Assembly (NCBI RefSeq): GCF_040183065.1
Contig: NC_091133.1
Location: forward strand, 137,078,306-137,142,305
Length of the DNA: 64,000 bases
Reading direction: 5' to 3'
DNA from: Periplaneta americana
Taxonomy: Eukaryota; Arthropoda; Insecta; Blattodea; Blattidae
A program made the position numbers and the translations under genes. How positions within the stretch are numbered: the first letter of the stretch is position 1; each line of letters opens with the position of its first letter. Below the pieces are notes generated by a model. That model saw only the letters and a program-made list of their open reading frames with translations. It was not told the origin of the DNA and searched no databases. Shown here in pieces: positions 3,319-56,135 of the stretch.

Positions 3319-3888
3319 TCATTATTGTTACTGTTTATCATTATCCTTATCTCTGGCACTAGGCATTAAATTTTTATGAGCCGCCACTGAAAAACATCCC
3401 GATGTGTAGGCTACGCTGTATTAGCTAATGTTGCTACAATCATATCGATAACTGGCTGGATTCCCAGAAGTTTTAAAGAAGTCTTAACACTTCTCATAGC
3501 CTATACAGGCCTGAAAGTGGCAAACATGGCGGCCAATATCTATCTGTTCTGTTCTTCGTCGTGTTATAGATTGTTTGAAAGACGACTGAGGAAGTAGGCC
3601 TATCTGTGTATCTTTCAATAAAAAGCAGCGAGAATTTACGGCAACTCAAGGTAAACAGATTAATTCATGTAGGTAGCCTATTTAAAAACATGCCAAGGGG
3701 AAAAAGAAAAAAAAAAAACTCGGTTGTCCTATTATTTTTTCTGGATATTAGTAAGGCTTAATTACGACAACACTGGCTTAGATCATTTAAAACCTGTAAT
3801 AAGCGTACGTGCAAACTATCCCAGAGAAATTGCAAGATAGTCCTATATTAACCCAGATCTGCTCACTGTTCTTTTAAAAGGACAGACA
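3318..3888. other. Unannotated stretch left of a hAT element
   Basis: No gene is recognised. There is a CATGGCGGCCAAT sequence at about 3523-3536, which combines a YY1-like core with a CCAAT-like string, and a possible splice donor (AAGGTAAAC) at about 3649. These are too weak to call a promoter. Confidence 0.4.
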
Positions 3889-4089
3889 TCATTAGTAGGC
3901 CTGAGAAATGTAAGTTATGCCGCTATACCACCACTGCGCTTCGTGCACCTCTGACTTCGAGTACGTCTCAGAGTGGGGGTGAGTTTGAACTCATGCTCAT
4001 CATCACGGTAAGTTAGTGCTCGGCATTTGGGTGGTTGAAAGCCACTCCTTTGACTTCGAAACACAACTATCTGCTAAAGAAACATTTAA

Positions 4090-4900
4090 AGACATCATTT
4101 TCTTTGTTAAAGAAAAATTGCACTATTTTAAAGACATTTTTATTTTCTGTCTGTAGAAAATACACCTAATATAACATTGATAATTATCAGCCTTATTATT
4201 TCACTATGTTAATGTGATGGTGTATTACGTTTTTATTTTACATAATTTTTCATTTCATATATTGTTGCAGTGAATAACAAACCACATTTTCAAATTTTCA
4301 AAAGAGATTGGTTGCCTTTTGCTATAAAACACAGCCTTACATCTAGAAGAACTTCGTTCCGCTTCTGCAGAAACAATGAGGACATATTTGAAATATTTTG
4401 CACAAGCATTATCTATCTCAAAATCTGTGTCATTATTATAAATTTCCTCATTTGAAATTGTCACAACTTTTACATAGAGCTATCTATCCATAACGTTTAT
4501 CCAGTATTTTTTTCATCTTGTTTGCTACATTTTTTCCTATTTCGTGTTGCAACTATTCGATTCGTCACAACATCATTGACTACATGCTATTTTATGTCTG
4601 TAGAAAATACACCTAATATGACATTGACAAGTATCAGCCTTATTATTTCACTATGTTAACATGGTAGTGTATTACGTTTTTGTTTTACATAATTTTTCAT
4701 TTAATATATTGTGAATAACAAACCACATTTTCAACTTTTCAAAGGAGAATGATTGCCTGTTGCTAGAATCCCCAGTCTTATGTTTAGAGAAACTCAGTTC
4801 CACTTCTGCAGAAACAATGCGGGAATATTTGAAATATTTTACACAAGCATTATTTATCTCAAAATCTGTATTATTGTTACAAATTTCCTCATTTTAAATT
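4090..4900. repeat. Tandem duplication, about 450-bp period, inside a hAT element
   Basis: Two diverged direct copies start with the shared string GAAAATACACCTAATAT (near 4157 and 4604). Both run through TATCAGCCTTATTATTTCAC and the hAT C-terminal coding segment. The second copy is shorter and carries more disruptions in its coding part. Confidence 0.8.
4255..4464 (-). pseudogene. hAT transposase C-terminal fragment (first copy)
   Basis: The translation contains IVSAEAERSSSRCKAVFYS and then SFENLKMWFVIHCN. This is the C-terminal dimerisation region of hAT transposases, where the usual motif is V-x-VERSFS-x-YK followed by a hydrophobic helix. The better-preserved relative in this window has [11 protein letters not shown]. 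The catalytic glutamate survives as AEAERS, but nothing upstream of this region is present. A second, more decayed copy follows at about 4690-4890. Confidence 0.75.
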
Positions 4901-5122
4901 AAGTCACAAATTTCGTCCTCAGCATCTTGCTATTATTCTTCTTTTCAAGACGTTGAATGTTGTCTGTTACGAATAGCAGTAATGTAACCGATCAACTGAA
5001 GTTCCCTGCTGAACGAAACACACTGAAATCCCCCACCCATCACAATTACGTACCGATACCTGAAGTCAGAGGCGCATGAAGCGCAATGCAACGGCATACA
5101 ATTCTTAGCCCTAGTCATTAGT

Positions 5123-5510
5123 ATAGGCTCTCTGATAGGCTATCATTGGCGTGTTTTAATCGGGATGGTTTTATGTTGGCATCACTGTTGATATTATGAG
5201 ATAATTATTCTAACAGCTGCAATTAATTTCTAACGCAGAGTTTGACTGTTGGCACTGGTCAAAATGTGGGATTCTTCAAACGTGAAAAAGAAGACGGATT
5301 TGAAAAGAAAAAGTAAATAGCCTAGGTCTAATTATTGTAAGATTGCAAAGATAGATTGTAATAACTTCAAAATTAATATTTATATTTTGAATTACCCATT
5401 ACCTGTTTTACGGCCATTACAGCAAATTTGTTTGTCCTTTTTGAAGAGCAATGGGCACAAAGGGTGCTATACCTACCTACTATATAATAAGCCTGTTATT
5501 GTTTCAGTTA
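5123..5510. other. Unannotated AT-rich stretch
   Basis: No gene or repeat end recognised. Decayed TAGGCTA and TAGCCTA strings occur at several points. Confidence 0.5.
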
Positions 5511-5511
5511 T

Positions 5512-6052
5512 GTGACAATGACTGAGGATGATAATGAGATGGTTGACAGAAATGAGATCTCTTACGGTGTTCCCGCCTCCTGTGGAAAATGGTGGTGCCA
5601 AAGATGAAGATTCAGGGGAAGAAAATGACCCTAGACCTAAATATCGTCCACTTAACCTGGATCAAAGCTTCGTGCTGAAGCTGAAATAAATGGCGATGAA
5701 TGTAACGAAGGAGAGAAATATAACATTGGTGAGGATTTATTACCTGTGAATTATTTCGAGAAAAAAAACATGCTTGGAAAAATGGTGACTTAGAAACAGA
5801 CTAAGTTATGTAGACTGGCCTGAGATGAGTTCTGTTCCAAATAACCTTTTCCCAGTGGACCGTTCAACATCAACAATAAGGAAGAGAAGTCGATCATCAT
5901 CTTTCGAATACGCAGATTCAAGATAAGATCGCACTGATCATTTGAGAACATCTCAGGGCAAACAAACATGATGCAGGGTTTGTCGCAAGAAGACTTCAAT
6001 GACATGTCAAAAGTGTCTGGTTGCCCTACATGTGTACCATAATAACACAGTG
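5512..6052 (+). pseudogene. piggyBac-type transposase relic with internal deletion
   Basis: The first part reads as the acidic N-terminus of a piggyBac-derived transposase: ENGGAKDEDSGEENDPRPK near 5587-5645, then in shifted frames RKKTCLEKW and VDWPEMSSVPNNLFPVD near 5812-5865. The sequence then jumps to the family's C-terminal cysteine-rich zinc-binding region, with CRVC-x7-CQKC-x3-LHV-x-YH near 5972-6035. The DDE catalytic core (several hundred residues) is missing between about 5870 and 5890. Frameshifts and stops occur throughout. No inverted repeats or TTAA target duplications were found at the edges. Confidence 0.72.
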
Positions 6053-6109: not shown

Positions 6110-6480
6110 CATTTCTTTCCTGCGCCACTGAAACAGACATTAGTTCAAACATTCGTAATGCCGCACTTCGATCCGATCATATTTCACCGACTCAACGATC
6201 GCAGAACTTTGCAGTCTTCCTCTTCTGTTCCAAATTCTGCGTACTCAACCCCAAGTTATCTGTGTTATTATGCTTCAATCATAACCTAAATACTCGATTT
6301 CAGATCACAGCCACATCAAGTAGGAATAGGCCTAGGCCTATATCTCATCATAACACTTCCCGATAGTACTCTTCATCATTTACTGTTTCAATTTCTCGTC
6401 ATTGGAACTCCCTAACTCACAGGTTCTCAGACATTAACTAATTTCAAAACCAGATTGTCAAATAGCTTAGACTATGACAT
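6110..6480 (+). pseudogene. 3'-terminal fragment of a jockey/CR1-like LINE ORF2
   Basis: In broken frame the translation gives RSDHISPTQRSQNFAVFLF (about 6172-6230), KLSVLLCFNHNLNTRFQIT (about 6253-6310) and FTVSISRHWNSL (about 6380-6415). The last motif is the short hydrophobic and tryptophan segment typical of the C-terminus of jockey- and CR1-like LINE reverse-transcriptase proteins. Catalytic domains are absent, as in a 5'-truncated insertion. A TAGGCCTA doublet sits inside at 6327-6340. Confidence 0.6.
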
Positions 6481-6539: not shown

Positions 6540-7660
6540 CTAGCCGTACCCGTGCGCTCCGCTGCACCTGTTAGAAATAAATATAAAGTAATTACATAAT
6601 TAAAATAGGACGTTTGACCCAGGGAACAACTTTTACAACAGCGCAAGATAATCTGCTTCGCTCATTACCCATTTTTTTTTCATTGCATTTATTGCATAGG
6701 CCTATATATTTTATGTATTTTAACACGATTCAATTGAGCATAGTTAAAATTTGAATTATAAAATAATGGATTGCTAAGCTAACGTACTATTACTGCATAC
6801 TAAATCAATATACTCTCGTTGTTCGTTAATTCTCTGAGATTAAAATGAGTGTACATAAATATTATTTTAAGAAATACAGAAAACGAATGTACAAAATAGC
6901 CTATCAAATTTTCTGTGCTTAAAAAGCTATTTTAATCTTTCCTGTCCTCGATTTACTCAGACGTTACTGTAATAACATTATAGCATTATATCCATCTAGA
7001 GAAACTACACTTTCCAATGGTGAAATAATAATTAATTATACAAATCGGTTAATTTAGCTTCTGATATTGCTTCATACAAACACAGAAACATTCTTTGTAG
7101 GCTATGTTTAATAGCTTTCGATTGTTGATGTCCAAGGCCCCTGTTTCGATTGTTGTTGTCCAAGGCCCTTTATAGACGAAGTCATTTGTTCTTAATTCAT
7201 TGTACCGTCTTAGATGGCGTTATTTTAATTTTAAAACTCATTTATCTCATTAAATATCAGTCCTATCAAAATTTTGTAAAGAATAAAACTTATCGGAAAT
7301 CATTTTTAAAGAAACTTTTGTTATGTAACATTTTTCACAAAAATCAATAATAAGCGAGATATTTCGATTTATTTAATTCAAGCCTCCTTATAACCCCCCC
7401 TTTTAAATAAAGTATTTTGAATGCCATATAGCCTAAAATCTAAGTTACAACGAACTTAATTTATACTCCAATTTTCATATAAATCGGTTGAGCCATTATG
7501 GCATGAAAAGGTAACAAACATACAGACAGACATACAAACAAAAATTTCAAAAATGCGATTTTCGGTTTCAGGGTGGTTAATTATATATGTTAGGACCAAT
7601 TATTTTTGGAAAATCGAAAATTACCAGAAAAATTTCGGCTACAGATTTATTATTAGTATA
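6540..7660 (+). repeat. Interspersed 1.1-kb repeat, copy 1
   Basis: It begins CTAGCCGTACCCGTGCGCTC and ends GATTTATTATTAGTATAGAT. Two further copies in the same orientation lie at 22729-23918 and 48645-49832. The last 650 bp align well among all three. Copy 1 differs in its left third (about 6620-6950) and lacks the ATATT array of the others. A short CATACAGACAGACATACAAACA-type run precedes the conserved 3' end. No coding potential was recognised; class undetermined. Confidence 0.85.
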
Positions 7661-7737
7661 GATTAGGCTTACTTCGACTCACATTGATGATTGTTTGATT
7701 TTTAGAATTACATGTAACCAAACTTCTCTTCATTTTG

Positions 7738-8262: not shown

Positions 8263-8737
8263 ATCCTTAATTCTAAAGGAAACTGTGCCAATGTAAGATG
8301 TAGTTAGGTTAAGTTATTTGTATTTTCTTCTGTAGGCCTAAAGTTAATTAATGTTGTATAGCATTGCAATTTTTTTTTATATTTGCTAAAAATACCATGT
8401 TAAAATGTTTGTATGAATGTTATACAAATTGAGAACAGTCATTTAGGCCTAGCCTATATGTTTCACATTACGTTTTGTAACAATATAGACTACCAGTCTA
8501 TGTTACGACAATAAAACATGCAAAAACTTAAATAACTTAATATACATCTCAACTCTCATAAATAATAGGCTACATACATTTGAATCAAACTCAGAAAGAA
8601 GTAGGCATAAGTCTAGGTCTACCTTGAAATAGTACCCAATTTGCCCACTTCCTTTTAAAAGGACAACACATTTCAGCTACGGTGGATTCCGATTTTTTTT
8701 AATTTTCCGGTTTATAACTTAGCCTATGTCTCATTAC

Positions 8738-10035
8738 CAGGGCCCGGATTTTGACGTGTCATCTTTTTTTCCTCATGAAGTATGCATGGCTCTCAAGTAT
8801 TAAAATCCTGAACATGAACCTCTGGTTATAAAAATATTAATTCTATTGTACAATTTTTTTCGTAATATTTTCTATTTTTGAAGTTTTAGGTAACTGTTCC
8901 AAGTTTTACGTCATTTTTTGGTAACTGTTTTCGCATTTTACTTCCTTTTCTTGTCCTTTTCTTTCTTTTTTGTTTTTGTTTTTTTTTTACAAAATATTAT
9001 ATTAATTTAAATTCTTAAATTATTTAAAATTTATTTTTAATCTAACGAAATAATGGAAGTTTGATCAGTGGTTCGACAATGTAGGCCTACATGTTGACAG
9101 ACTGTCTTAGCTGTAGCTACTTAGGCCTATTATTGTCGCTGCAACCAATTCTCCTATATTTTCAAACCTGCTTATAGTAATAAAAAAAACAACATGCCGC
9201 TCAAGAATGTATACATACAATCATGTTGAAAGTAGTGATTGTAGCTACATCCCATCGCGACAAGCGTTTGATTCGTTATTTTCACTGTCACTGATTTAGT
9301 TAATTACAAATTTTCAGAGTGGAATGTTCGGTGTTCGGTTTTCGAAGTTTCATTCAGCCATGCCTAAAATAAAGTCAGCTAAATCTTGTCATGTAAGTCA
9401 GACTGTATCTGAATTTGGAGACGATGTTTTCTCTACGGACAGTGAAGTATTATTTCGTAAGTTGTGTGAAACAAAGGTAGACTATCAGTCGAAAGAAAAT
9501 TCGTTGTTCAACAACATGTGGTTCGCGATAAGCAAATACGGGCAGTGCAAGTCGCAAGTAAGAAGAAATCCACGCAACTTTTACTGCAACAAAGTGTAGG
9601 CTATCCTTGACGGAGAATAAATCTCAAATTTTTACAGAGACTTTTGTGAAGCATTTGATACTTCCTGCATTGAAGAAGATCTCACTACCAGTGATTTAGC
9701 TCATTTCACTATGCTCCAGTTGTAGAAAGGAGTTTCTCACAGTAGGCCTACAAAAATGTGCTTTCCGACAACAGGCTTCCCTAACTTTCGAGAAGCTGTG
9801 CATACTGGTGATTACCTACTGCAATAATTCTGAATAAGCTAAGTATTTTATACGTCCTCTTTCCTAGAACTTACAAATTCGCGAGTTTAAATTAATAGGC
9901 TATTAGTTTTTAATTTCAATTCTAACATTACAGAAATAACTGCTGTACTGCCATACCCTAAAATGAAGACAAAATTTTTTTGTCATTTTTTAGATCATTT
10001 TTGAGATTTTTTAGGTCATCAAAATCCGAGCCCAG
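8738..10035 (+). mobile_element. Deleted hAT element with 8-bp target duplication
   Basis: CTCATTAC occurs at 8730-8737 and again at 10036-10043, an exact 8-bp target duplication. The termini are imperfect inverted repeats: left CAGGGCCCGGATTTTGACG, right in reverse complement CTGGGCTCGGATTTTGATG. The element is 1298 bp and carries only the two ends of a hAT transposase gene (9360-9830), so it is an internally deleted copy. It belongs to the same broad family as the nearly intact element at 44370-46535. Confidence 0.88.
9360..9835 (+). pseudogene. Internally deleted hAT transposase (zinc finger joined to C-terminus)
   Basis: The frame opening at 9360 gives MPKIKSAKSCHVSQTVSEFG and then VFSTDSEVLFRKLCETKVDY. 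It aligns with the N-terminus of the hAT at 44819 (MPKVRHS..., STDNKILFCNLCQ). The second cysteine of the zinc finger is kept, but the first cysteine is arginine. After frameshifts the sequence passes to the hAT C-terminus, FHYAPV-VERSFSQ (about 9700-9743), with the following YKNVLSDNR split by a TAGGCCTA. The catalytic centre is missing. The break at 9744-9751 is a net gain of 6 bp relative to the expected CAGTAC (Gln-Tyr) codons. Confidence 0.78.
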
Positions 10036-10389: not shown

Positions 10390-11089
10390 CTTCGTATATG
10401 AATACCCGAAGATTTTATGTGAATAGACATCTAAAATAGATTAACCTATTAGCTAATTGTGCACCAGACTAGGCCTAGGCCCATGTTAAGAAGACATTTG
10501 GTGCACTCGATGAAGAAATGCTTGTGTGATTGGAACCGCAACTGATTTGAAAGTCCTGCTTTTAAAGATTAGCCTGTGGCAGGCTATAGCCCAGGCTATA
10601 CTATCATACAGATTTCCCCTTAACTCCCCCCTCCACCTTCTCCGACTGAGACGAGTAGACCAGCACTGCTCAGTGACGGATTACATCATAGCTTTTATGA
10701 ACTTTCGCTCGAGCTGGTGGCCTGAAATCACCACTGAAGCGCAGTGCCCCCTGTGCGTTTGTTTACAAGGCAGTGAAGCCCAGGCAGTGCCCAGGGGCGC
10801 TATAGCCTGAATGAAGTAGGCTAGGTCTTGTCTCGGAAAGGAGGAAAGAGAAACAATTTTTTCTGTTTCCAATGAGATTTTTCATTATAATGGAAATAGT
10901 AATTCGATTGAAGTTTACAACAGTGCGTGAAAATGATAATAGACCCACACTAATGCACACAGCCTAGGCGAGGACGACACGCACAGCTGCTCCGGACGCT
11001 AGTGGTGGTTAACGGAGGAATAGTGAGTGAAGAAGGAACAACAGTGTATTCGAGTACAGGCCTAAGTGGGTAGGAAACATGTCAGATTA
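10390..11089. other. Unannotated stretch, GC-richer from 10600
   Basis: No gene recognised. The region 10600-11030 is richer in C and G than its surroundings and has several CpG. Open frames such as 10526-10810 have no recognisable domain. Confidence 0.45.
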
Positions 11090-11672: not shown

Positions 11673-12139
11673 GAGATTATTCTATTCTTACATTAAGTTT
11701 CCGTAAGACTCATTTGCTGCAGGCGACGTGTGAAGACGTCATACGCCAGATATTCGAGTTTGCACCCGGTGCAGTTTCCCCTGCCACAATGCTTTGGAAT
11801 TCACTCAAGGTCTTAAATGCACTTCTGGCCACAAGTGACTTGGGTTAAGTTGTATCCCTGCAGTTTGAGCCTTCAGGTTGTCTACGATAGGCCTATTTGT
11901 TAGGCCCGTGGATCTAGGAGTTGAAGTAGATCTGGACGTGTTCATGTTCGTAGAAAGGCGCCAGAGAGGCGGAAGGGTTGTGGAAAATGAAATGCACGCC
12001 CGTGTGATGTTCACACAGCGAGGCAAGTGGCCGTCAGTCTCGAGATTGCGCGAGGCTACGCTTTAGATTTTCTCTTTCCGAGGTTCTCGAAGTTGAATAA
12101 ACAATTAGAAAACCGTCTGCCTCATCTGACAGGGAGTCT

Positions 12140-12699: not shown

Positions 12700-15600
12700 C
12701 CAGTGAACTGTTCTGTGACACGTGACACTTGCCTCGCGGATCTAAACACTCATGCTGTCTGGTTTATTGTCTGTTGTTATTCTAAGATGTTTACCTACCA
12801 TGTATGTTCTGCGAAAGCAGCCTAAATTAAGTCATTTTCCTTCAATTATTCAGTTAAGAGTTTTGCTTGCGGTGTAATTGGTTTCCATAGCGACTGCTCT
12901 GTCCCCTCGACTTCGAGGCGATTTTCCAATCAACTTTTTTTAGTTAATTACTTTTATAAAACTACAGTAAATTATTCCAATAGGCCAATCATGCGCATAC
13001 CCAAAAGAAAGTTATAAATTGTGTAAGCTTGACACTGTTATTTTATCGCATTGTGTAAAGTAAACAGCCTGAAATGGCCTATTCAAGAACTGGAATACGT
13101 ACTAGACCCAGGACGAACTTTGACGCGATCACATTCTTAACAATCGAATGCGTGCATCAGATGATACCGTATGAAATTGCACACGTTTAACTACAATCGA
13201 TAGCAACCTACATATTGTAAAGTGGCATAATGTTATTACAACACTCAAGTTACCGCTAGTCGAAACCTACCCAAACAGCAGGCCTAGCCTACCCCAGTTG
13301 GCGCATAGGCCGTAAATGGCTTTGGCCAGTAAATGTTTTGTAATAAAATGATAAATTTCCTCTCTGTTATGAAGTTACAACGAGTAGCTTACATCATTTA
13401 ATTTGTACTCAGTAGGCCTATCTTGCGTGTATGTTCTTAAATTAATAGCTCAACACTGTTCTCCAACCAGGAGATTAACCGTGAAAGGAATGTGCTTACT
13501 ATTGCGTCATCTATTGGAGCGAAGTAGATAGATAATATTATCGTTATAACATCAGTTTAAAAACCATGTGCTCTCCTGCATATGTTATTTCCTGTATGGA
13601 GGGATTAAAAGACCAGGAGATTAAAAGTGATCTAATTTTGTAACTAGGGTAGTATCAATATGTGTGTAACGATGTTATTGTTTGTGCTGTGAGAGCGAGC
13701 CAATAGAGATACGAGTACCCACGTGTGTGACCTTATGACATCAACATTCATTCACAGCATCACCCCGCTCCGCTTCATTCCGCACACTTTCTCGTGGTTG
13801 GAGCACAGTATAACTTAACTCAGATAATTGCTGATCTGTGACCAAAGAGACGGGCGTTCAATTCGCTTCATGTAGCCTGCTGCTGGCAAAAATACCGACG
13901 TGCCGAGTGCCTCACTTGCTAGTCTTCCTTGTCCTTGTATTTCACTGCTGTTAGTAACAACATCATGGCGTCATATTTAAATACTCTGCAATATTGCTTA
14001 AAAGCAAAGTCTGATAAAGAATAACTTATGACTTGTATCGAATTTTCACAAAACAAACTTGGCCTAAACAAAAATATAACTTATAGCTGAACAGTTGTTA
14101 AAAATTGAACATTAGACCTAGCTGAAAATCAATTAGGCCCTAACTTCTAGCCTATATATGCATCGACCCTTGGTAGTATTAATTTTTAATGTCTTTATTA
14201 TTTTTAAACTGAATGACAACCGTAAGCACTTGCCTTAATTTAATTAATCATTCATCATAGCCTTTAGCCTTTCACTGCACCACGACATTTCAATATTTAT
14301 TATGAAATTAGGCCTAAGTCAAATTATCCGTGTTTCACATCGGTGGGGCGAGGGCTGCAGAGTCAATGTTGCCAGGCCAAGACAACCTGAAGAGATTAAC
14401 AGGACTGTGACGTGCACCAAAGCAATGAACTGTTACCCAACTGACAAACACGGACGATTCCTTAAGCTAGCAAAAGTACCAAAATAGATTTTGACATAAA
14501 CTTTGATGGAAAATTAAACATTTATGAGTTAAGTTTTAGTTAAGTGGCGAAATCTTTAGAGCAATGAATTAGGTCTAGGCCTATGCATTTCCAACATGAG
14601 TCTAAACGACGAAATGTAGAAAAAGAAACTTGAATGTCATAGGCGAGAACAGAAGGCGATGTGGATGGAGCAGATCCGACATTGTTGTTTTTGATAATGA
14701 TCTTATTTTAGTCAGCTAATTAAAAAGTCTGGTTTAATTTAAACAGTGGAACACATCTATGTGAACCATTGCCGTGCATACTGTCTGACCAATGAGAATT
14801 CCAATCGACTATCGGACTTCAAACAAATATGGCTTCATGATTGATAGGCTTGTAAGTTCTTATTGTAGTCTAAATATTCCTTATAGGCCTTTTTATTGCC
14901 TTTACTTTCTCGTCATCTCCTGCAAAATTTATGCCACGAAGCAGGTCTACCTGTCTGTGTCTTAAGTCGATTACCAGCATCTCTCCAACCCGCCTCAATT
15001 CTCTGGGATCATTCATCTCTCAATATTAACATCTGCTGTTGTAATTTATTCATTAAACATTCGCAAGATCTAAAATAAAATATACAAGGGAAGAAGAAGA
15101 ACATTTTGTAAAATAAATGCTGACTCACTCTTCTATAGGCCTACGAACAAGCATAGGCCTCACACAAAGGGTAGAAATGAGTTTCTTAAAAGGAAAAAAA
15201 GGCTGAGGGACAACGGACCTCGTAAAAATGAAGATTTAACAAGAATATTAATGATAAAATAGAATCATATCACATAAATTCATTGGATAATTTAAATATA
15301 ACTTATGCAACATGAAAGGTTAGAAAAAAACAGTTCGATATATAAACAGAATGCAACATAAAATGTAGCATAAGTTACTTATCAGAATGACGAGATGTCG
15401 AAGTAGACCTAAATGATGTGAAGAATGCCTACGCCTATGCTTAAATTGTATGACTTATTTATAGGCCTACTTACGATCTCGCAATTGGTCTAAGAAATCT
15501 CAACAGCTGATTAATTCAACATGTCGTCATTTGTTTTGAGGGCATCGCATCGCGCTCGCTTCGTAACAAGAATTTATTGATTTTACGTTTCGATTATCGG

Positions 15601-17830
15601 AATAAAAAAATATTGATGCGGCAAGACTTTTTCAAGTAATTTCGTTTGCTCTGCAATAATCCTCATGGTTGTGCGTGCCGGTGCGTAGGACGTACGCACT
15701 ACTATTGGAGTTGAAATTGATTCGAAGTCCTGCCTGTATGGATCCTTCTGTCACTGCCACATTTTATATCCCTTACATCTAAGATTACGCATGACTGAAA
15801 ATTGTGAAACGCGTAACCAAAAGTAATTTGTGGCCTCAGCCTACCTTTAAACAGAGAACGGCTCGTTAACAAATAAACTTCGCGAAAAATCAGTCGGATA
15901 ACTTTCCTACATCAGTGCCATGTTGACTTCCTAAAGCAGAAAATTCTAATTAGGCCTACACGTCACATTATTAGGCCTATTTACATTAATATTAACTTAA
16001 TAATAGGCCTAATGCCGGTGATGATGGTGGTGATGATGATGTTGATAATAATAATAATAATAATAACAATAATAATAATAAATGCAATAAACTCGGACTG
16101 ATAATTTACTAAATATTAATATTGATATTAATTATTAATCGGACTGATAAGTTTTTATTCACGATTATGAAGCAAAATTAACGAGGCTGAAATCTTGCTA
16201 TGACGCAGGACGATCAGATCAGCTCCTTGCTGGGATCAAAATCATTCTGTGTCGCTGAACGTGCGTCAAGTAGGCTAATAACTTAATAAAGCCTACAATG
16301 GTCTCTCCTTCTTTCGGATCAGTAAAAGATTCGCAGCGCACTTCGAATTCTAAGAGGAACCACCAACGACAATAATTTCCGTCGTGTTTGTTTGTTTGTA
16401 TTCCTTTTGATGATATTGCAATAATAAGGGAATGAAATTAAAGCTTTCTGTTACAATTACTTTCTTCACTACATCTGGATCCAAAGATGAACAACTGTTT
16501 CCAGCTCACACTTCCTTCTGTTCACAGCGCTTCAATCTTATGCTCATTTCGGAGATGACTTCCACTTTTATCGATCGCATTATTTAGGTCTTTACACAAG
16601 GCACAAGTTACACTTTTTATTCTTTTAGTCACAAATATTCAAACAACATTTCGTATCAGGATTTTTTTTTTTGGCAAATAAATGTTGAAAATTCTCCGAA
16701 GAACTGTCTTAATAATTTCTTCATTACTTCAATATGAAGAAAAGAGAGAAGGACAAAATGTGATCTGTTAATTTCCAAAGATTTCCTAGAAGTTCTCGTT
16801 GTTTTACACGGCGACAGTAATTTGAGGATTTCCGCTCATTAACACAGAAAAGGTGGTTGTAATTTGAGGAAAATAAATACAGGTAGGCCTATGCTGACAC
16901 AGAAAAGGTAGTTTTCAGTAACATCATAGGCATATGAAGGCAGTTCATGCTTCTGTTTCTCTTATATTCCTCGTCGTCGTTGTTGTTTTTTTTTCAAAAT
17001 CTTGATCCTTTATCAGTTTATGGATTTGAGGACCGACGAAAATTTCAGTTTCCAACTTGTCTTCTGTCATGATTGGAAATTAGGCCTAAATGACAAATGG
17101 TTAATCCAGGGTTCCTTTTGGGCTATAGCCTTTAGAGTATTAGGCCTACTTGTAAACTCCTAATGGTGGAAGTAAAACTTTTTGGGTGTTTACAAGTGGT
17201 TCACTTAAATGTTTTCAGTTCCAGGCATAGAATTTCTCCTTCCTGACCAATCCCTCACAATACAGTCCTTTTGTTTCACTCGACTATCCCATTCATAAGG
17301 TAGCAAGACATTTTATTGTAGGCCTATCCATATTGCTGTCTCAGTAGCGTCCCTATACCTTTAAAGTCACTGCACATTATCCATTTGTGTTTTTCATAGT
17401 GAATATCTTCATATTTTCACAAGTTTACATTCAATGGACAACGGAAATAGATCCATAGTCTACATAGATTGTGCGGCAACACACGGTTCAGGCTTCTCTG
17501 CTGAGAAGGGTCCGTAAAACTGCATTAACTCATTGCAGTAAACGAGGAAATCTTTCTGAGCGAATAAGTAGGCCAACTCGTTTTCTACGTGTCTGACTCT
17601 AGCCGTTCATAAATTGTTTTAGGCATCACGCACAACACGAATAAGGGTAGACTTTTTTGTCGTTGAAATTCTCTAACTCGCAGCTCTTGTATTTCAGTTT
17701 GAATAATGATTGAAAACAGCGAAAATAATAAATAGATATAAACGGGTTGACTGATTAATATATTTATTCATACGATGCGTTTGAGTAAAGAACCATTGAT
17801 TTCTAATACGCGGATCTCTCAAGGTAGTTA
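12700..17830. other. Long unannotated stretch, rich in TAGGCCTA
   Basis: No coding region or known repeat was recognised. The stretch contains at least twelve exact TAGGCCTA palindromes, for example near 13414, 14309, 15474, 15954, 15972 and 17090, plus many one-change variants. A short TAA array is at 16045-16082. This could be a host intron or intergenic DNA. Confidence 0.5.
16045..16082. repeat. (TAA)n microsatellite, imperfect
   Basis: AATAATAAT array with one AAC interruption, preceded by a short GAT/GGT run. Confidence 0.92.
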
Positions 17831-17905: not shown

Positions 17906-18580
17906 TCGTACTCTTTAATGTCGAACTCCGATAGCAAGTGATTACAGAAGGTTCTAGTTAATACTACTTTAAAACGGAAATATGTAATCGATGAAACATC
18001 CTATGAACCAGGATGTTCCATAGCAGTAGCTATAAAAGCTTGGATCCTGCCTTCGATGATCATTCACATTTCTGAAACTCGTGACAGCAAAAGTGAACGA
18101 GAGCGACAGAAGAATTAAATAGGCCTATATGATATTCCAGCAAGCAGTATGGCCCAGCTCCATGCGGGTTGTCATTGATCTCGTATGTCGTAGATCATTT
18201 GGTGTGTCATAGTCTGAATCCAACGTTTTTCATGGTATATCCAGGCTGTGGCATTCGCAGGGTAGTGACATGGGGCCTACTCAAAATATCTTTAAATAAA
18301 TGAATAAATTGTGTTAAAACTTTACGCTGTCTATTCTTTATACTGGCACCTTCTTATTATGTCCGTTATTTATTCCAAATGAAACAAGTCAAATTAATTT
18401 GAGGGACTGGAGATAACTTAAGTAATTATTACGAATAACATGAGAAGAGCAAATGACTGGATAAACACTATGCATTGAAAAACGCGACTATAACGAACTT
18501 GAAAAGCTGAAAGAAAATAACTAATTAATATAGCACATGTTTAACATAAAATTATTACACGAAAACTAAAATTCCTAACA
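17906..18580. other. Unannotated stretch
   Basis: Nothing recognised apart from one TAGGCCTA at about 18121. Confidence 0.5.
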
Positions 18581-19654: not shown

Positions 19655-19848
19655 ACTTTTAACGACGCAGTACCAAATGTAGTGGGATCCGTGGTAACGA
19701 GATGGAATTGGCAGTACGGATCTGAGGATTTGCTAAGGGATTACCTGATATTCGCATTAAAGTTTGGGGAAAGCCTCGAAACAACTAGGTCAACACGCGA
19801 CCAACCGCAGCTTCGGACCACGAGTTCACCACTACTACCAACTGACTT
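19655..19848 (-). repeat. Degraded SINE (family A), antisense
   Basis: On the plus strand the order AACGACGCAGTACCAA, GTGGTAACGAGATGG, GATTACCTGATATTCGC, GTTTGGGGAAAGCCTCG follows the antisense body of the SINE at 7800-8052, with a decayed head up to 19848. It abuts the 3' end of the neighbouring LINE. Confidence 0.75.
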
Positions 19849-19849
19849 A

Positions 19850-20965
19850 CAAATGGCTTTTAAGGAACCCGAAGGTTCATTACCGCCCTCACATAAGCCC
19901 GCCATTGGTCCCTATCCTGTGCAAGATTAATCCAGTCTCTATCGTCATATCACACCTCCCTCAAATACATTTTAATATTATCTTCCCATCTACGTCTCGG
20001 TCTCCCTAAAGGTCTTTTTCCCCTCCGGTCTTCCAACTAACACTCTGTATGAATTTCTGAATTCACCTATATGTGCTACATGCCCTGCCCATCTCAAACG
20101 TCTGGATTTAATGTTCCTAATTATGTCAGGCGAAGAATACAATGCGTGAAGTTCTGCATTGTGTAACTTCCTCCATTCTCCTGTAACGTCATTCCTCCTA
20201 GCCCCAAATATTTTCCAAAGAACCTTATTTTCAAACACCCTTTATCTCTGTTCCTCTTTCAAAGTGAGAGTCGAAGTTTCACAATCATACAGAAAAACCG
20301 GTAATATAGGCCTAAATGTTTTTTAAATTATAACTTTCAGATTTTTTGACAGCAGACTAGATGATAAAAGCTTCCCAACTGAATAATAACAGGCATTGCC
20401 CATATTTATTCTGCGTTTAATTTCCTCCCTAGTGTCATTTATATTTGTTACTGCTGCTCCAAGATATTTGAATTTTTCCACCTCTTCGAAGGATAAATCT
20501 TCAATTTTTATATTTCCATTTCTTACAATATTCTCGTCACGAGACATAATCATATACTTTGTCTTTTCGGGATTTACTTCCAAACCTATCTCTTTACTTG
20601 CTTCCAGTAAAATTCCCGTGTTTTCCCTAATCATTTGTGGATTTTCTCCTAACATATTCACGTCATCCGCATAGACAAGAAGCTGATGTAACCCGTTCAA
20701 TTCCAAACCCTGTCTGTTATCCTGAACTTTCCTAATGGCATATTCTAGAGCGAAGTTACAAAGTAAAGGTGATAGTGCATCTCCTTGCTTTAGCCCGCAG
20801 TGAATTGGAAAAGCATCAGACAGAAGCTGGCCTATAGGCTCTCTGCTGTATGTTTCACTGAGACGTATTTTAATTAATCGAACTAATATCTTGGGAATAC
20901 CAAATTCAATAAGAATGTTATATAAAACTTCTCTCTTAACTGAGTCCTATAGCCTATGCCTTTTC
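19850..20965 (-). pseudogene. RTE-like LINE relic, reverse transcriptase and C-terminal tail
   Basis: The minus strand codes for the second half of a non-LTR reverse transcriptase. From high to low coordinate it gives [19 protein letters not shown] (about 20930-20870), [20 protein letters not shown] (about 20800-20735), [16 protein letters not shown] (the YADD catalytic box, about 20680-20635), the connection region ending in a gap near 20330, and the distal tail with RLRWAGHVAHIGE (about 20105-20065). The 3' end GGTTCCTTAAAAGCCATTT matches the copies at 31860 and 39870. Frameshifts at about 20320 and 20240, a TAGGCCTA insertion at 20307-20314 and the missing 5' half make it a relic. Relative to the open copy at 31058-31852 it is clearly older. 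Confidence 0.88.
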
Positions 20966-21145: not shown

Positions 21146-21528
21146 CAATATCAGCGACAACAGTTTCATTAAAGAAGGGAGCCTGATCTTAGGCAACCCT
21201 TCATGCAAGGATCGTTTCGAATGTTATACATTACACTAGACATTAGACCTATAGAAGAACTTCGAGATCATGTTTCTTAACAATAAAAATTCGCTGTACA
21301 GAGTGTTCAGCTCTTGTTGCCATGGTGAACGCCGTTGGTTCGAACTCTGTCTAGGGTACGAATGTTAACTGTCAGAGACGCTGTGATATAGCTGACAGTT
21401 TTTCCATGGATATTTCGTCCACAAATGGTTTTAGTCCTCTACTTTTTGCTACTGGCCAAAATGTTCATATTCGAATTAACTGCAATGTTTGAACACTCAT
21501 TGTGGACGTATCCATAGTAACAGTAGGC
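21142..21528. other. Unannotated stretch
   Basis: Nothing recognised. Confidence 0.5.
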
Positions 21529-21529
21529 C

Positions 21530-21800
21530 TACATTGCGTTAAGCTGAGGCTCGTCATAGGTTTCCTGTATGTTTAGCTTTACTTTCCTCCCATCGCTCTC
21601 AGTGGGGTAATGTAGAAGCATGGCGGGGAAAACCGGAACAGACCAACTCAAAGAAAATGTGCTAATCTGGTTACCACAGAAACTGATCCAGATCGGATGG
21701 AGCAAATGCATCAGAAGGAAAACAGGCAAATAATCATTGTGAGCGGGATCTGAACCCCGCCATGTACGAGTACGACTCCCGTGTGCCACGCCAGCGGCTC
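21530..21800 (-). repeat. tRNA-derived SINE, antisense (family B)
   Basis: Near 21733-21795 the reverse complement gives TGGCGTGGCACACGGG (A-box region) and GGGGTTCAGATCCCGC (B box). The body extends left and contains GTTCCGGTTTTCCCCGCC near 21615-21640, similar in pattern to the central block of family A. A poly-T run at 21829-21846 lies just beyond the head. Confidence 0.62.
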
Positions 21801-23777: not shown

Positions 23778-23918
23778 GGCATACAAACAAAAATTTCAAA
23801 AAAGCGATTTTCGGTTTCAGGGTGGTTAATTATATATGTTAGGACCAATTATTTTTGGAAAATCGAAAATTACCAGAAAAATTTCGGCTACAGATTTATT
23901 ATTAGTAGGCCTATAGAT
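22729..23918 (+). repeat. Interspersed 1.1-kb repeat, copy 2
   Basis: Same start (CTAGCCGTACCCGTGCGCTC) and 3' end as the copies at 6540 and 48645. It contains an ATATT array at about 23153-23197 and a GACA run at 23735-23775. Its final GTATAGAT is expanded to GTAGGCCTATAGAT at 23905-23918, while the other two copies keep GTATAGAT. Confidence 0.87.
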
Positions 23919-30963: not shown

Positions 30964-31057
30964 CTTTGCTCTAGAGTATGCCATTAGGAAAGTCCAGGTT
31001 AACAGAGAGGGTTTGGAATTGAACGAGTTACATTAGCCGCTTGTCTATGCAGATGAC

Positions 31058-31852: not shown

Positions 31853-32099
31853 AAGCCATTAAGTAAGTAAGTAAGTAAGTAAGTGCGGTGATATCAGCAT
31901 GCTGGCTGCTACAGTGAGCGCTTCCTTGTAAGTAATTATTACGTCTTACACATGGCCAGATATTCCTTCGTTCCACTCGTCAGTACTGCAGACTCTATTG
32001 CTATTGGAGTTAAGCTTTTGCGCAGGACGCCTATCCACCAAGTAGTCATGCTGTGAGTGACTGTTGACTTGCAATCCATCAAGCCAGTGACTGGCTTCC

Positions 32100-37605: not shown

Positions 37606-37610
37606 ACATA

Positions 37611-38969: not shown

Positions 38970-38971
38970 TA

Positions 38972-40744: not shown

Positions 40745-41295
40745 TCATATTGTAAATAGTTATTTATGATACAAATGTTAAACGTGTCACTTTACTTCGT
40801 GAGTAGGGATGTTTGTTAAACGAGGTTTTCAGACCAGATGGAAAGTTCTTGATGTTAAAAAATGTTGCTGTACGTATGGTGGGTGTATTCGGAGAAGAAC
40901 TGTCAGATGACTGCGAACAATGTTCAGGACTAGGAAGTCCACTGCAATAAAAATTCCAAATAACAAGACTAAAGTTCCATGAACTTTCAATATTGTTGGT
41001 AAATTTTTGGTATAGGCCTACTTGGTATATGTACAAGAATAAGTTCTGACTGACTTTTATTCGCTGGCAACTTAAACACTTTTCGTACAACAAGTACTGC
41101 TGACTGCCAATCTCTTCGATGCAAAACTGTCGGAAGAAAATGACATGAAAATTGATGTTTTCAAAACTAACCATAGCAATAAAAACTACTTTCTTAAGTT
41201 TAACTATAACTTAAATAATAATCAAGTCAACAGAACAGATGTTAAGACCTTGGAATATGCTTTGAGAGCAAACTTTATTTTCACAACATGTAAAT
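40745..41295. other. Unannotated stretch
   Basis: A 136-codon frame at 40764-41174 (minus) is the longest unexplained one here, but it shows no domain. It begins with a hydrophobic phenylalanine-rich stretch and its composition follows the AT-rich background. One TAGGCCTA lies at about 41013. Confidence 0.45.
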
Positions 41296-46543: not shown

Positions 46544-48640
46544 CAATACTTGGAAAGCGAAGGTATTCGAATTTAAAACTTCCCAACTGAGAGAGGAAGA
46601 CTGAGAAACATCATCTGATTATGGATATTGGTCTGCATATTCCACGAGGTGCACAAGTCACCTCAGGTATGACATGTAAGCAGTGTTTACAAATATTATA
46701 AATAATCCCATAATAAGGAAACAGAACTTAGGTGATCCTGCTTCATTAATCTCAAACGGTTTTAATTATTATTATAAGCAAGGACCTAAAGAGTAGACCC
46801 ACATGTGCTACTTCTTCCTCTATAAATAACAAAAGAAAGCATGTCTTCTCTTCTCTATTATCCAAACAGCTATACACAATGACCAGCTTCCCTGATACAG
46901 ACAAAAAGTGCCAAACCGTTTTATTTTCCATCTCATCTCATATTTACAGCCACATTCGCACATTATTAGAAGCAGGAAAAAATTAAATTACTTCATATAA
47001 GTAAGAAAGATAACAGAATCCATTCTTAGGTCTAGTAATTTAAACATAAGGGATTGATACATTTTTTCATTAAGCTTTCAAATCCTTAAAGGGACAAATA
47101 TTCCTGTGAAAACTGAGAAATAAAAGAAGACTTATTCCTTGTTTTACCAGTATAATTAATAAATAGCATGACAGAGGGCATGACATTATGGAAATTAACG
47201 TGTCAAAATCTGTCGACTCAAGTATCAGAGCTTTAAATAGCAATATGTGCAATTTGGTAAGTATAGATCACTTTCTAGGAGTCACACATGCCAAATTTAG
47301 AATCGATAGTTAATCTTATGTATCACCGTTTCGAAAATTGATAAATGTTGTCATATTCTCAGAATATGACAACATTTATATTAATTTCAAGAACCCTCTC
47401 ATCTTGAATATTAAAAAAAAAAAAAAAGAGATGAAAGTTGTTGGTACAGGTTGATAATCGCGTAAAATGAATATTGCATTGAAAGTTGCAGTTCGTATGC
47501 TGGCATCAAGGTACAAAAATAATTAGACCACATGGTGATCTTCAATACATTATCAAAAAGAGCCACAACAGTTGTTGGAAAGGATTGATAACAGTGTAAT
47601 ATGAACATTGCACGAAATTTGTTCATTACCATAGTTCACACTCGGGACGCCTGGTGAACTCCGCTAGACTACGTGGCAGTTACTGATGTAAGACAAGTTG
47701 CCTGGATTGCACGGCGATTTTAAGAGAGAGGAGCGAATGTAAGATAAAACGGTGAGAGGGAACGATCAGTGGACTATCGTAAACTGCCTCCGTATTCAGG
47801 TTATATTTTCAATGTCAGCTCTATGACTGATTTTACGTAAATGTTACGTGACGATGTGGTGGGGATGGTTACAGTAAAATACGCCTATAAATGAATAAGG
47901 AAGGAACTTAATTCTCTTCATTAAGTATTTTTTCCACGTCTAAATAAACTTTTTATTATAATGCAAGCCGTACAAACTAACTTGTAGGCCTATTGTATGC
48001 AAACTGTCTGACGAGCAAACGCAAAGACTATGACGAAAAGGAGGGAGCATAGTAGCCCATATTACACATATTTATAATATCAAAATACCAACAGTCAACA
48101 TCTAAAATGCAAAGTTGGTTTGTGTGTTAGCAGTAAACAGAGAATTCGTATTGATTGCTAGGATACTGCAGCCTTGCTCAATCTAGTGTACGTTGTTTCA
48201 CTTTTTTGGAAGTTCAAGTAAGTTCTGTTTACTTCGTATGACGAGATTGTGGGGCTATCGCGTGCATGAAATTTAATTATAGTAAGAAAGGTGAGAGCAA
48301 AGGACATGTTGAATTGAGAAGAAAAGAAGTGACTAACGCTTCGATGTTTAAGAACTGATATGACTGAATAACCGTATAGCTGCTGTATTTAAGAGTTAAT
48401 TTGATTAGCACATAATGTACACTCATTTTTCTTCTGTTTTGTATATTCCTATAATCCTCATTAGCAGAAGCAAGATTTTTTGTTATTAGTGATAAATTAG
48501 AAAGTTGTTCATAAAAAAAACACGTTTTATATGCATATGCAGATATTTTGGAATGGTTTATGGCATTAAATTGTGGAGATTCTTTTTTTACAATTTTGAC
48601 TTTTTTCAAGATTATTGTGTTCTCTAGCGATATTATTATT
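46544..48640. other. Unannotated stretch
   Basis: No gene recognised. Contains a 39-bp hairpin (47341-47379), a poly-A run near 47412-47427 and one TAGGCCTA near 47986. A 131-codon frame on the minus strand (48277-48672) matches nothing I know and reflects AT-rich composition. Confidence 0.45.
47341..47379. repeat. Perfect hairpin, 19-bp arms, 1-nt loop
   Basis: ATAAATGTTGTCATATTCT, then C, then the exact reverse complement. It is too AT-rich and without a T tract to call a terminator. Confidence 0.9.
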
Positions 48641-48644: not shown

Positions 48645-49831
48645 CTAGCCGTACCCGTGCGCTCCGCTGCACCCGTTACAAATAAATATAAAGTAATTAC
48701 ATAATTAAAATAGGACATTTTATCCAGGGAACATTCGTGTTTGATAGAAGGATAAATCGTTTAATATGTTACTTAATTTAAATTGCATCCAAATAATTAA
48801 AATGCGATCATTTTGGTCCAGAGACACTCATTTGGTGCAATGTCAATTCCTTTAACATGTTTCTTAATTTTTATTACATGCAACCATAGTTTAATGAATA
48901 TTGACATCATTTAGATTTAATGTGTATATTTTATTTTACTTGTTATAGGTTTCCATTAAATTATGGTAATAACTTAATTTTAACCCTTGTTTTCTAAGTA
49001 TTCAGTAAATGGCGCTTGGCCCACTATGGTACTAAACCCTTCAAATAACTTAAATTATATTATATAATATTACATATTATATTATATTATATTATATTAT
49101 ATTATATTATATTATATTATATTATATTATATTATATTATATTATATCAGAAGTTTCTGTAATAACATTATAGCATTATGTCCATCTAGAGAAACTACAC
49201 TTTCCAGTGGTGAAATAATAATTAATTATACAAATCGGTTAATTTAGCTTCCGATATTACTTCATACAAACACAGAAACATTCTCTGTAGGCTATCTTTC
49301 ATAGCTTTCGATTGGTGCTTCCAAGGCCCCTTATAGACGAAGTCATTTGTTTTTTAATTCATTACACGGCCTTAGATGGCAGTTATTTTAATTTTAAAAC
49401 TCATTTATCTCATTAAATATCAGTCCTATCAAAATTTTTCAAGAAATAAAACTTATCGCAAATTATTTTTAAAGAAACGTTTGTTGTGTAACATTTTTCA
49501 CAAAAATCAATAATAAGCGAGATATTTAGATTTATTTAATTCAGGACCCCTTATAACCCCTCTTTTAAATAATGTATTTTGAATGCCATATAGCCTAAAA
49601 TCTAAGTTACAACGAACTTAATTTATATTCCAATTTTCATCGAAATCCTTTCAGCCATTATCGCGTGAAAAGGTAACAAACATACATACAGACAGACAGA
49701 CATACAAACAAAAATTTCAAAAAAGCTATTTTCGGTTTGAGGATGGTTAATTATATACGTTAGGAGCAATTATTTTTGGAAAATCGAAAATTACCAGAAA
49801 AATTTCGGCTACAGATTTATTATTTGTATAG

Positions 49832-49832
<1 letters not shown>
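48645..49832 (+). repeat. Interspersed 1.1-kb repeat, copy 3
   Basis: Same ends as the copies at 6540 and 22729, closest to copy 2. It includes an ATATT array at 49066-49147, longer than that of copy 2. ATT repeats lie directly on both sides (48630-48643 and 49832-49866), so it seems to have landed in an ATT microsatellite. Confidence 0.88.
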
Positions 49833-49867
<35 letters not shown>

Positions 49868-54230: not shown

Positions 54231-54234
54231 TACT

Positions 54235-54555
54235 TTCTTTTGTAGTAGAATCCCCTTCTTCCTAATAATATAAATATCTGATCTGGTGAAAACTCTCTGA
54301 TCTTTGAAAAATGTTAAGGAATCTTCACTTTCCGATTCTTCAAACTATATTACATAGGCATGTTCTCCTCCCAAGAAGCAATTATGGTAGTGCACTCAAA
54401 GTCAATTACTTTCCCACTGTCTAAGTTACCACACCATTCAGTGATGTATGGCCATGGTGCTGCGTACACGAATATGAGATCATTCCCCACGTTCCTCATT
54501 TTCAAAGCTACAGCTTGTTCCACTGCCTGCTGTGATATTGCAGATGATAAAGGTT
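54235..54555. other. Unannotated spacer
   Basis: Nothing recognised. Confidence 0.5.
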
Positions 54556-54559
54556 GAAA

Positions 54560-54730
54560 TTATGGAAACGGGAGTACCCGAGAAAAACCCTCTGTAACGT
54601 CTGCTTTGTCCATCACAAGTTCCAACGCGACCTGGCCGGAGTTCGAACCTGGATGGAAGACCAGCGCGCTGGCATTTGAGTCACAGACGCAGCTTCCACA
54701 CGCCTCAGCCGACTGAGGTACGCCGGTGCT
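54560..54730 (-). repeat. tRNA-derived SINE, antisense (family E, long variable arm)
   Basis: In reverse complement the head starts CACCGGCGTACCTCAGTCGG (A box region) and has AGGTTCGAACTCC (B box) near 54640-54630. The roughly 85-nt gap between boxes suggests descent from a class II tRNA such as Ser or Leu. The body has GGGTTTTTCTCGGGTACTCC, again a variant of the CC-GGTT-TTTT-CC central block. Confidence 0.75.
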
Positions 54731-54734
54731 TATC

Positions 54735-56135
54735 TGGCTGGATTTGTGTATATCCATTCTGCTACGCTATTTTACGTTTTTCACTTTTATTTGTAGTTAA
54801 AATTTTACAATTAGGCCTATGAAGAGTAAAAAAAAACACTGGCTTACGTTTTTTGGACTTCATTGTGGTTTCTCAGATTGTATTATTCACATGAGCAACA
54901 TGTTAGACATTCTAACACTCCAGCAGTAGCTTGAACTGACACAGCCCTGCGAATTGGCGCACCAGTGACAGACTGATGTCTATTGGTTGTTGACACAAGT
55001 GCAGAACACATGCAACACAAACCAGTGGAGTCTTCCAGAAATATAGCCGGCCCTCCGCTGGGGCCAGTTCTTCCTTCGCCACTTGGAAACGCGAGGTTAG
55101 GTAGCTGCGGTCGCGACCTCTGCCAGAGATCCCGTCAAGAGCGATTCCCCATCATAAGTATATTTAATAACTAGACACTTCAGAATTTATATCAAATTTG
55201 AGCTTGTGAGTTAAAGCAAGCAGTGGGAAAGGATTAAGCATAGCTGGATGAAAAAACAGCAAAACCACAAGGACAAAGAAATCAAGAACAGGTTGCGGGG
55301 AAGCAATGGAGAGAAGGCGGGGAATACGGGAAGGAGCTGAAGAGATCATGATTATGCTCTGGAAGAGGTTGATTGGAAATGCGTCCATGCATCCGTACTT
55401 GAGACAGACGTGTGTATAGGTACAAATTGCATCACCTCTTCGTGGATAGCGAGTATTGCAACTACAAGAATTGTTTTCGAGCTGACCGCACAAAAATGTC
55501 GCCACAAAATATCCATTATTTTATTATTCTACCGCATTACTTAGCAAAGTACAACAAAAATTATTACAAGTATTAGATTGTATTGAAGGACGCCTATTGA
55601 ACCATCCAATATAACATTCCGTGGTAGTGTGCAGACTTCCCAAATGCGTTATTTTATCCTATCGTAAGCATGCAGGATTTATTTGACTATCGTAGGTAAG
55701 CTTGAACACTTTTTAGAAGTAAAGCTACAAGCGAATGAAACGCAAAAGAAACATTTCCAATTTTAATTATGATAAATTATTTAGAGTGTTCCATTATCGT
55801 CTGCATTGTGTACGTTTTCTCTGATTCCACACTTTTCAAGATTCTGCGTTTAATATAATGTCTACACAAATCTTTCCATTCTGCTTCAACTCTGTCTTTT
55901 CCTTTTCAGTTCTGAAACGCGTTCTCGTCATTTCTAGGCTTTGTATTGCATTTCTTTCAAGTTCTAGCTACAATATTTTACCACTCGTTCACTTTCCGCA
56001 CATTTTTTGGTATCTTTTCCCACAATTGATGATTTAAAAGCTGCTTACGTATTTTAATTCGATACTATGGAACATTCTTATCGTCATTTAATGAAAGTTC
56101 TTACAAGTTTTAGTAATTACGAGTACTAAAAACAA
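54735..56135. other. Unannotated stretch
   Basis: A 113-codon frame at 55164-55505 (minus) has eight cysteines but no recognised domain. It overlaps no known repeat and has no promoter or splice support, so I do not call it a gene. One TAGGCCTA lies at about 54813. Confidence 0.4.

Follow-up and report, generated by a model that had tools for sequence, protein, structure and literature searches.

The 8-letter palindrome TAGGCCTA occurs in 36 exact copies, between positions 3595 and 54819 (Table 1), in a 64-kb stretch of the Periplaneta americana genome (contig NC_091133.1, positions 137,078,306 to 137,142,305; 'the window' below refers to this whole stretch). Copies of the word arise by the gain of six bases at a TA dinucleotide and are accompanied by a sister class of insertions that add five. 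We consider it quite probable that TAGGCCTA is, for the most part, the excision footprint of a TA-specific cut-and-paste transposon of the Tc1/mariner type, with ends that begin 5'-GGC.

A great excess of the palindrome had been claimed in a first-pass annotation of the window, which put the number of copies at about 35 and set an excess over the Markov expectation as the test beforehand. An order-3 Markov model predicts 1.9 copies in the window as compared to the 36 observed, and dinucleotide-preserving shuffles (100 in all) gave an expectation of 0.50 with a maximum of 3, so that the claim passes its test by a wide margin. TAGGCCTA is the most frequent of all palindromic 8-mers in the window, the runner-up of equal G+C content being present in 4 copies. 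The same excess is found in the genome at large (3.23 Gb in 91 contigs, of which C1 to C17 are each 138–229 Mb long): a 200-kb sample taken from 20 arbitrary places in that genome contained 27 copies where 1.6 were expected, and the genome-wide count was 457,526, against a Markov expectation of approximately 24,000 (scaled up from the 200 kb). The reversed word ATCCGGAT, counted as a control that may itself be depleted because it includes CG, was present 16,914 times.

The sequences flanking the 36 window sites are unrelated to one another (a purine ahead of the palindrome and a pyrimidine behind it are all that is favoured), and TAGGCCTA is therefore not part of a longer repeat. Likeness beyond the 8 bases, of the kind that marks an interspersed repeat or a miniature inverted-repeat transposable element (MITE), was not found among these sites. 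The window is denser in TAGGCCTA than the genome average, chiefly before 31 kb, where 32 of the 36 sites are located. The distribution is patchy, with 23 sites between positions 8001 and 24000 and none between 56001 and 64000, compared to a genome mean of one per ~7 kb. Elsewhere in the genome, at least 35 sites were present among the matches listed for C1:752–820 kb, and seven copies at 84-bp spacing were observed at C1:1034003–1034514, in what is apparently a tandem repeat with one mark per unit.

Comparison of related sequences within the window indicates that the palindrome was gained at a plain TA. The first-pass annotation had proposed this from three cases, all of which held up on realignment (with coordinates that differed from ours by 0–1). 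The site at 23906–23913 lies in copy 2 of a repeat whose siblings, near 7658 and 49828, read GTATAGAT. The insert at 20307–20314, in a copy of a long interspersed nuclear element (LINE), is absent from all nine sibling alignments that cover the site; eight of these display a clean 6-base gap, and in the ninth (L011) the gap is placed differently. Finally, joining the flanks of the site at 9743–9750 restores the peptide FSQYK in frame, and the same peptide is present in a related open reading frame (ORF) of the window (45031–46302) for which the sole Pfam match is DUF659; both the split remnant and this ORF we presume to be hAT-like, a label that follows the first-pass annotation. When the window and the 200-kb sample were aligned all against all, only 268 clean small insertions emerged, a number insufficient for a spectrum; direct insertions of GGCTA and GCCTA at the TAs of empty siblings were among them. 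Nested marks are also present (TAGGCCTAGGCCTA at 6327 and TAGGCCTAGCCTA at 8444), and a TA created by an earlier mark has therefore been used again.

We used the copies of the LINE family as insertion traps. At one TA (LINE site 1, GTTCTG-TA-TGGTTGTGAAAC), 33,072 copies were intact and empty and 113 carried 1–16 extra nucleotides after the TA. A second (LINE site 2, CGCATTG-TA-TTCTTCACCTGAC), treated as a trap of inserts alone with empty copies uncounted, yielded 213 inserts. Insert classes were tallied from 100 of the 113 and 100 of the 213, respectively. Those at LINE site 1 were predominantly 5 nt (42) or 6 nt (24) in length, with no other size represented more than 11 times, and they ended in TA in 42 of 42 and 22 of 24 cases. 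The main inserts there were GCCTA (19), GGCCTA (17) and GGCTA (4), with CTGTA (5), CAGTA (1), CTCGTA (1) and CGAGTA (1) as lesser classes. Inserts of the GGC type were also recovered at LINE site 2 (GCCTA 7, GGCTA 6 and GGCCTA 6), together with TGTA (6), CTGTA (5), CGAGTA (3), CAGTA (2), CATA (2) and CTCGTA (1), and TA ended all 28 of the 5-nt and all 14 of the 6-nt inserts. Pooled across the two sites, 70 of 70 listed 5-nt inserts end in TA. What is gained at these positions is a handful of bases together with one TA, precisely at the TA, and both of the complementary forms, GGC and GCC, are present at both LINE TAs.

A non-TA control position, five bases past LINE site 1, was probed with anchors 4 bases longer and with empty copies uncounted, and is more informative about the kind of insert than about its rate; the 16 inserts found there all duplicate short stretches of adjoining sequence, and none is of the GGC type. 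Twelve inserts of 17–47 nt were found at LINE site 1, seven of which repeat LINE sequence as judged by eye, and none of the twelve is of the GGC type or starts with GGC. The polarity seen in thousands of repeat copies, combined with the non-TA control, shows that the insertions take place at TA. A different kind of LINE insert was noted at C1:79898291–79898349, where ~31 bases with inverted ends CAAGAGG/CCTCTTG are located between two copies of the 8-base sequence GTTCTGTA; by eye this is a very small element flanked by an 8-base target duplication of the sort that hAT elements make.

The five-base class is equally visible in word counts. TAGGCTA and TAGCCTA together number 48 in the 200-kb sample, where 14.5 are expected, and 38 in the window, where 5.1 are. 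One-change forms of the palindrome had been regarded in the first-pass annotation as decayed versions of it. For TAGGCTA and TAGCCTA this does not stand: because they are found directly at TAs as +5 insertions, they represent sister insertions and not decay. The notion that shortened forms are solely mutated +6 sites was accordingly rejected, as +5 inserts are at least as frequent as +6 inserts among those listed (23 versus 17 at LINE site 1, and 13 versus 6 at LINE site 2). Decay survives only as a possibility for TAGACCTA (12 copies versus 1.1 expected in the window, and 8 versus 3.5 in the 200-kb sample), which may be either a decayed form or a variant. The word TAGGCCCTA, present 5 times in the window (0.2 expected) and absent from the 200-kb sample (0.6 expected), may be a third and rarer product, perhaps a +7 variant; GGCCCTA was observed in 10 of 19 LINE-tail junctions, a set chosen for GGCC without a following T. 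No excess of TAGGTA or TAGCTA is seen in the word counts of the window and the 200-kb sample.

Both size classes share the same target, a palindromic A.R-TA-Y.T. Relative to all TA sites, the preference for the base adjoining the TA (A or G before it, T or C after it) has a P value of 1.5e-7 for GGCC and 1.2e-8 for GGC/GCC, and the preference for A at the third base out has a P value of 2.7e-5 when the classes are pooled.

The kinship of the LINE copies bearing GGC-type inserts was examined by fetching 200 bases on each side of 20 of the 40 such carriers among 100 listed inserts, and comparing them with each other and with 10 empty copies on the LINE part alone (non-LINE flanks bias the nearest-neighbour count). 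The nearest sequence was an empty copy for 7 of the 20 carriers, approximately the level expected by chance with 20 carriers among 30 sequences, and was another carrier or a tie for the remaining 13. Mean identity was 0.890 between carriers of the same insert class and 0.891 between carriers of different classes, while the sharing of non-consensus bases was 0.044 among carriers and 0.043 between carriers and empty copies. Label shuffles reached the observed class differences in 1118 of 2000 trials for identity and in 554 of 2000 for non-consensus bases. A shared insert is thus no sign of closer kinship, and the inserts are not markers of LINE lineages; this lack of kinship within a class is as expected for independent events. 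Five of the 20 carriers are 95–97% identical to an empty copy over the LINE part, indicating that some of the activity does not date far back. Two carrier pairs lie close together, on C6 and C7, and may derive from shared events.

The GGC-type marks are accompanied by others that correspond to transposons resident in the genome. When all TA-x-TA words in the 200-kb sample were ranked without bias, GGC/GCC came first among the 3-mers (z 8.7), followed by CAG/CTG (4.5), and GGCC came first among the 4-mers (z 17.9), followed by GAAG and then by CGAG/CTCG (4.1). GAAG was set aside, as 21 of its 32 copies come from a satellite locus (L018). That satellite, composed of the head-to-tail word CCCGCTTGAGCTGTACTGTGTACTTCTAAAC, dominates several 8-mer counts. 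A first look across the genome produced 26,193 family candidates for DDE_3 and 19,038 for Transposase_1, of which the best 150 of each family were scored; these best matches include many open transposase frames, both Tc1-like (352 amino acids) and mariner (387 amino acids). Among the fetched copies with readable ends (a set that excludes L042 and L050–L053), TA-CAG ends are present in L043–L046 and L058, and at one end only in L047 and L062; L054, L055 and L060 have TA-CGAGG ends, and L056 has TA-CAC ends. The CAG/CTG and CGAG/CTCG marks that are also borne by the LINE TAs thus match the terminal bases of Tc1 and mariner elements that reside in this genome.

The Minos-type footprint comprises four bases, CGAG or CTCG. 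Marks of this form are found at the LINE TAs, and resident mariner ends read TA-CGAGG; four-base marks therefore do occur in this genome. In contrast to the Minos-type bases, GGCC is self-complementary, and joined GGCC overhangs would therefore need no mismatch correction. A review (PMC3878927) describes 3' overhangs of 2–3 nt upon Tc1/mariner excision. It gives the Sleeping Beauty footprint as C(A/T)GTA, and the CTGTA and CAGTA inserts present at both LINE TAs are of this class. The marks in P. americana resemble the footprints of Sleeping Beauty, Tc1 and Mos1, as far as that source describes them, in having TA doubled around 2–4 bases, an odd-numbered class in two complementary forms and a palindromic TA target. 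They differ in being GGC or GGCC rather than CAG, in numbering hundreds of thousands, and in having a source that has not been seen.

From these features we infer a GGC-ended element, its class and the chemistry of its overhangs. In the mechanism that we propose, the transposon would insert at its preferred A.R-TA-Y.T target and thereby double the TA. Upon exit, a cut placed three bases inside the ends would leave a GGC 3' overhang on each flank, and annealing of the two overhangs through their self-complementary GC, followed by filling of the gaps, would produce TA-GG-CC-TA (+6), which is TAGGCCTA. Were all three bases to pair instead, correction of the central G-G mismatch to either strand would produce TA-GGC-TA or TA-GCC-TA (+5). 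Alternatively, a four-base GGCC overhang might be formed, which would give rise to the +6 form alone. Each hop would leave one mark, so that marks could far exceed resident copies, and the palindrome itself would be an accident of the end sequence and not a selected site. Read as footprints, the excess amounts to ~0.43 million +6 marks and ~0.5 million +5 marks (extrapolated from the 200 kb), part of which are copies made by later duplication, as with the seven at 84-bp spacing on C1. The first-pass annotation had left the choice between a minute TA-targeted insertion and a repair footprint; the data support that pair of alternatives, and an excision footprint is the better supported of the two because the same TAs bear marks that match resident Tc1/mariner ends.

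Several observations weigh against an excision origin, the main weakness of which is the missing source. Whereas the inserted bases match resident transposon ends for CAG/CTG and CGAG/CTCG, no intact GGC-ended element was found in the window, the 200-kb sample or 77 LINE junctions: neither TA-flanked inverted repeats nor recurrent TAGGC words supplied such an end in the window and the sample, and none of the fetched transposase loci with readable ends has an end starting with GGC (these start with CAG, CAC or CGAG). Right junctions at LINE site 1 match the LINE at 10 or more of 14 bases in 74 of 77 cases; the one clear non-LINE junction had no LINE in it when fetched, and two weaker ones were left unfetched. 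At an abundance of 4% of the marks, approximately 3 intact elements would be expected among the 77 junctions. A recurrent end was likewise not found in the 19 LINE-tail junctions, for which the ends tested were those starting GGCC without a following T. Oddly, no source is in sight for the commonest mark, and yet fewer marks are left by families that number tens of thousands of first-look candidates. GCC outnumbers GGC by 19 to 4 at LINE site 1, as compared to 7 to 6 at LINE site 2; a flank-dependent choice of strand during mismatch correction is possible. In addition, a few insertion events may be shared, for example in L033 and L039, the closest pair of carriers, both of which have GCC and which have 0.20 of non-consensus bases in common. 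Two further candidates for the source were dismissed: the mariner-like remnant of the window (Table 1), whose end starts with CGTGG and which is therefore not the GGC source, and an inverted repeat in L017 that begins GGAG. The source could possibly be a rare but mobile element, an extinct element, or no element at all but a machine writing GGC(C) directly.

A machine of the latter kind, such as a Tc1/mariner transposase that has been domesticated, or the repair partners of one, would be a TA-specific enzyme that cuts TA and adds GGC or GGCC directly, at sites most of which never held a transposon. The failure to find a source element in the window, the 200-kb sample and the LINE junctions, the marked uniformity of the inserts and the higher frequency of the GGC(C) mark relative to other footprint classes all favour such an enzyme. 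We nonetheless regard it as unlikely, since other TA-x-TA marks at the same TAs match real transposon ends, and an ordinary excision process is therefore at work here; moreover, the spectrum of GGC, GCC and GGCC is the one predicted from a GGC overhang. By the same token it is doubtful that such a TA-specific machine wrote the ~1 million TA-GGC(C)-TA marks; a milder form of this idea is a ghost transposon known only by its exit marks. Local slippage or microhomology repair at TA, acting with no transposase, could draw on the short inserts that do duplicate local bases, yet we find it scarcely believable as a source of these marks: the GGC bases are absent from the flanks of both LINE sites, the 16 inserts at the non-TA control contradict it, and the uniform TA ending of the listed 5-nt inserts is equally at odds with it.

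The reverse polarity, in which TAGGCCTA is ancestral in its repeat families (or was spread as a miniature repeat) and plain TAs are deletions, agrees with a few sites that do travel with a repeat unit (two that are 157 bp apart in L006, and the seven on C1). The majority of empty LINE copies (33,072, versus 113 with any short insert), the kinship test and the unrelated flanks refute repeat spread as the main cause, and we assign this account a negligible likelihood. Great excess of a highly iterated short palindrome, as displayed by TAGGCCTA, is known from HIP1 in cyanobacteria; to our knowledge HIP1 has not been described as arising by insertion, whereas TAGGCCTA arises by insertion at TA. 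Selection for TAGGCCTA as a site of protein binding or of structural importance, by analogy with other highly iterated palindromes, would be in keeping with its perfect symmetry and strong excess, but is very hard to credit for a word that arises by insertion in transposon copies, even within a broken reading frame, and that is accompanied by a sister +5 class that is not palindromic. An excision footprint of a GGC-ended element is the explanation that we prefer to all of these.

The coordinates of all 36 sites and of the sequences with which they were compared are listed in Table 1, together with the mariner-like remnant. The window also contains tandem arrays, of ~43 bp units and of TATCA, at 41422–42622 and 56477–56771.

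Table 1. Palindrome sites, empty sibling sites and related features, in window coordinates.
Feature	Position	Strand	Evidence
TAGGCCTA site 1	3595..3602		exact count
TAGGCCTA site 2, nested with site 3 (TAGGCCTAGGCCTA)	6327..6334		exact count, flank comparison
TAGGCCTA site 3, nested with site 2	6333..6340		exact count, flank comparison
TAGGCCTA site 4	6697..6704		exact count
TAGGCCTA site 5	8333..8340		exact count
TAGGCCTA site 6, then GCCTA (TAGGCCTAGCCTA: nested +6 and +5 marks)	8444..8451		exact count, flank comparison
TAGGCCTA site 7	9082..9089		exact count
TAGGCCTA site 8	9122..9129		exact count
TAGGCCTA site 9, inside Tyr codon of presumed hAT-like remnant (FSQ/YK)	9743..9750		exact count, reading frame
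TAGGCCTA site 10	10470..10477		exact count
TAGGCCTA site 11	11888..11895		exact count
TAGGCCTA site 12	13413..13420		exact count
TAGGCCTA site 13	14309..14316		exact count
TAGGCCTA site 14	14576..14583		exact count
TAGGCCTA site 15	15136..15143		exact count
TAGGCCTA site 16	15462..15469		exact count
TAGGCCTA site 17	15951..15958		exact count
TAGGCCTA site 18	15972..15979		exact count
TAGGCCTA site 19	16004..16011		exact count
TAGGCCTA site 20	16884..16891		exact count
TAGGCCTA site 21	17081..17088		exact count
TAGGCCTA site 22	17141..17148		exact count
TAGGCCTA site 23	17319..17326		exact count
TAGGCCTA site 24	18120..18127		exact count
TAGGCCTA site 25, in LINE copy	20307..20314		exact count, sibling alignments
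TAGGCCTA site 26	21524..21531		exact count
TAGGCCTA site 27, copy 2 of repeat	23906..23913		exact count, sibling comparison
TAGGCCTA site 28	28522..28529		exact count
TAGGCCTA site 29	29366..29373		exact count
TAGGCCTA site 30	29907..29914		exact count
TAGGCCTA site 31	30250..30257		exact count
TAGGCCTA site 32	30611..30618		exact count
TAGGCCTA site 33	35950..35957		exact count
TAGGCCTA site 34	41013..41020		exact count
TAGGCCTA site 35	47985..47992		exact count
TAGGCCTA site 36	54812..54819		exact count
LINE copy bearing site 25	19841..20762	-	sibling comparison
Empty sibling site (TTATATTACC) in LINE copy ~30957-31872	31404..31413		sibling comparison
Empty sibling end (GTATAGAT), copy 1 of site-27 repeat	7616..7665	+	sibling comparison
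Empty sibling end (GTATAGAT), copy 3 of site-27 repeat	49786..49835	+	sibling comparison
TA-flanked mariner-like remnant	37609..38971	-	19/20 inverted-repeat bases; Mos1 transposase HTH_48 in ORF 38273-38794

The type of footprint described here is already known, and what is new is the number of marks and the missing source. In the titles and abstract openings of the literature that we searched, we found nothing relevant on such a palindrome (the letters of TAGGCCTA do occur in some papers, none of which we judged relevant), nor any description of a genome in which one footprint class is this numerous and its maker unseen. Excision marks have been read genome-wide by sequence comparison, as here, in a study of rice DNA transposons (PMC4423477). 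When two species were compared there, only 8 perfect cases were reported among 94 putative excisions, and the rest had deletions, filler or both. Unlike those, the marks in P. americana are uniform, and the method differs in that a single repeat, present in thousands of copies, serves as the trap.

The activity of cut-and-paste transposons is commonly assessed from their surviving copies. Here the marks of presumed past departures can be counted in their hundreds of thousands and classified according to end sequence, with an abundant LINE family providing tens of thousands of identical test sites. The long-term hopping rate of each type of transposon, the repair of transposon breaks by the host, and even families that are no longer visible become directly measurable by this means. 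Small insertions likewise acquire a measurable source, in marks that interrupt codons and lengthen the sequence by 5 or 6 bases.

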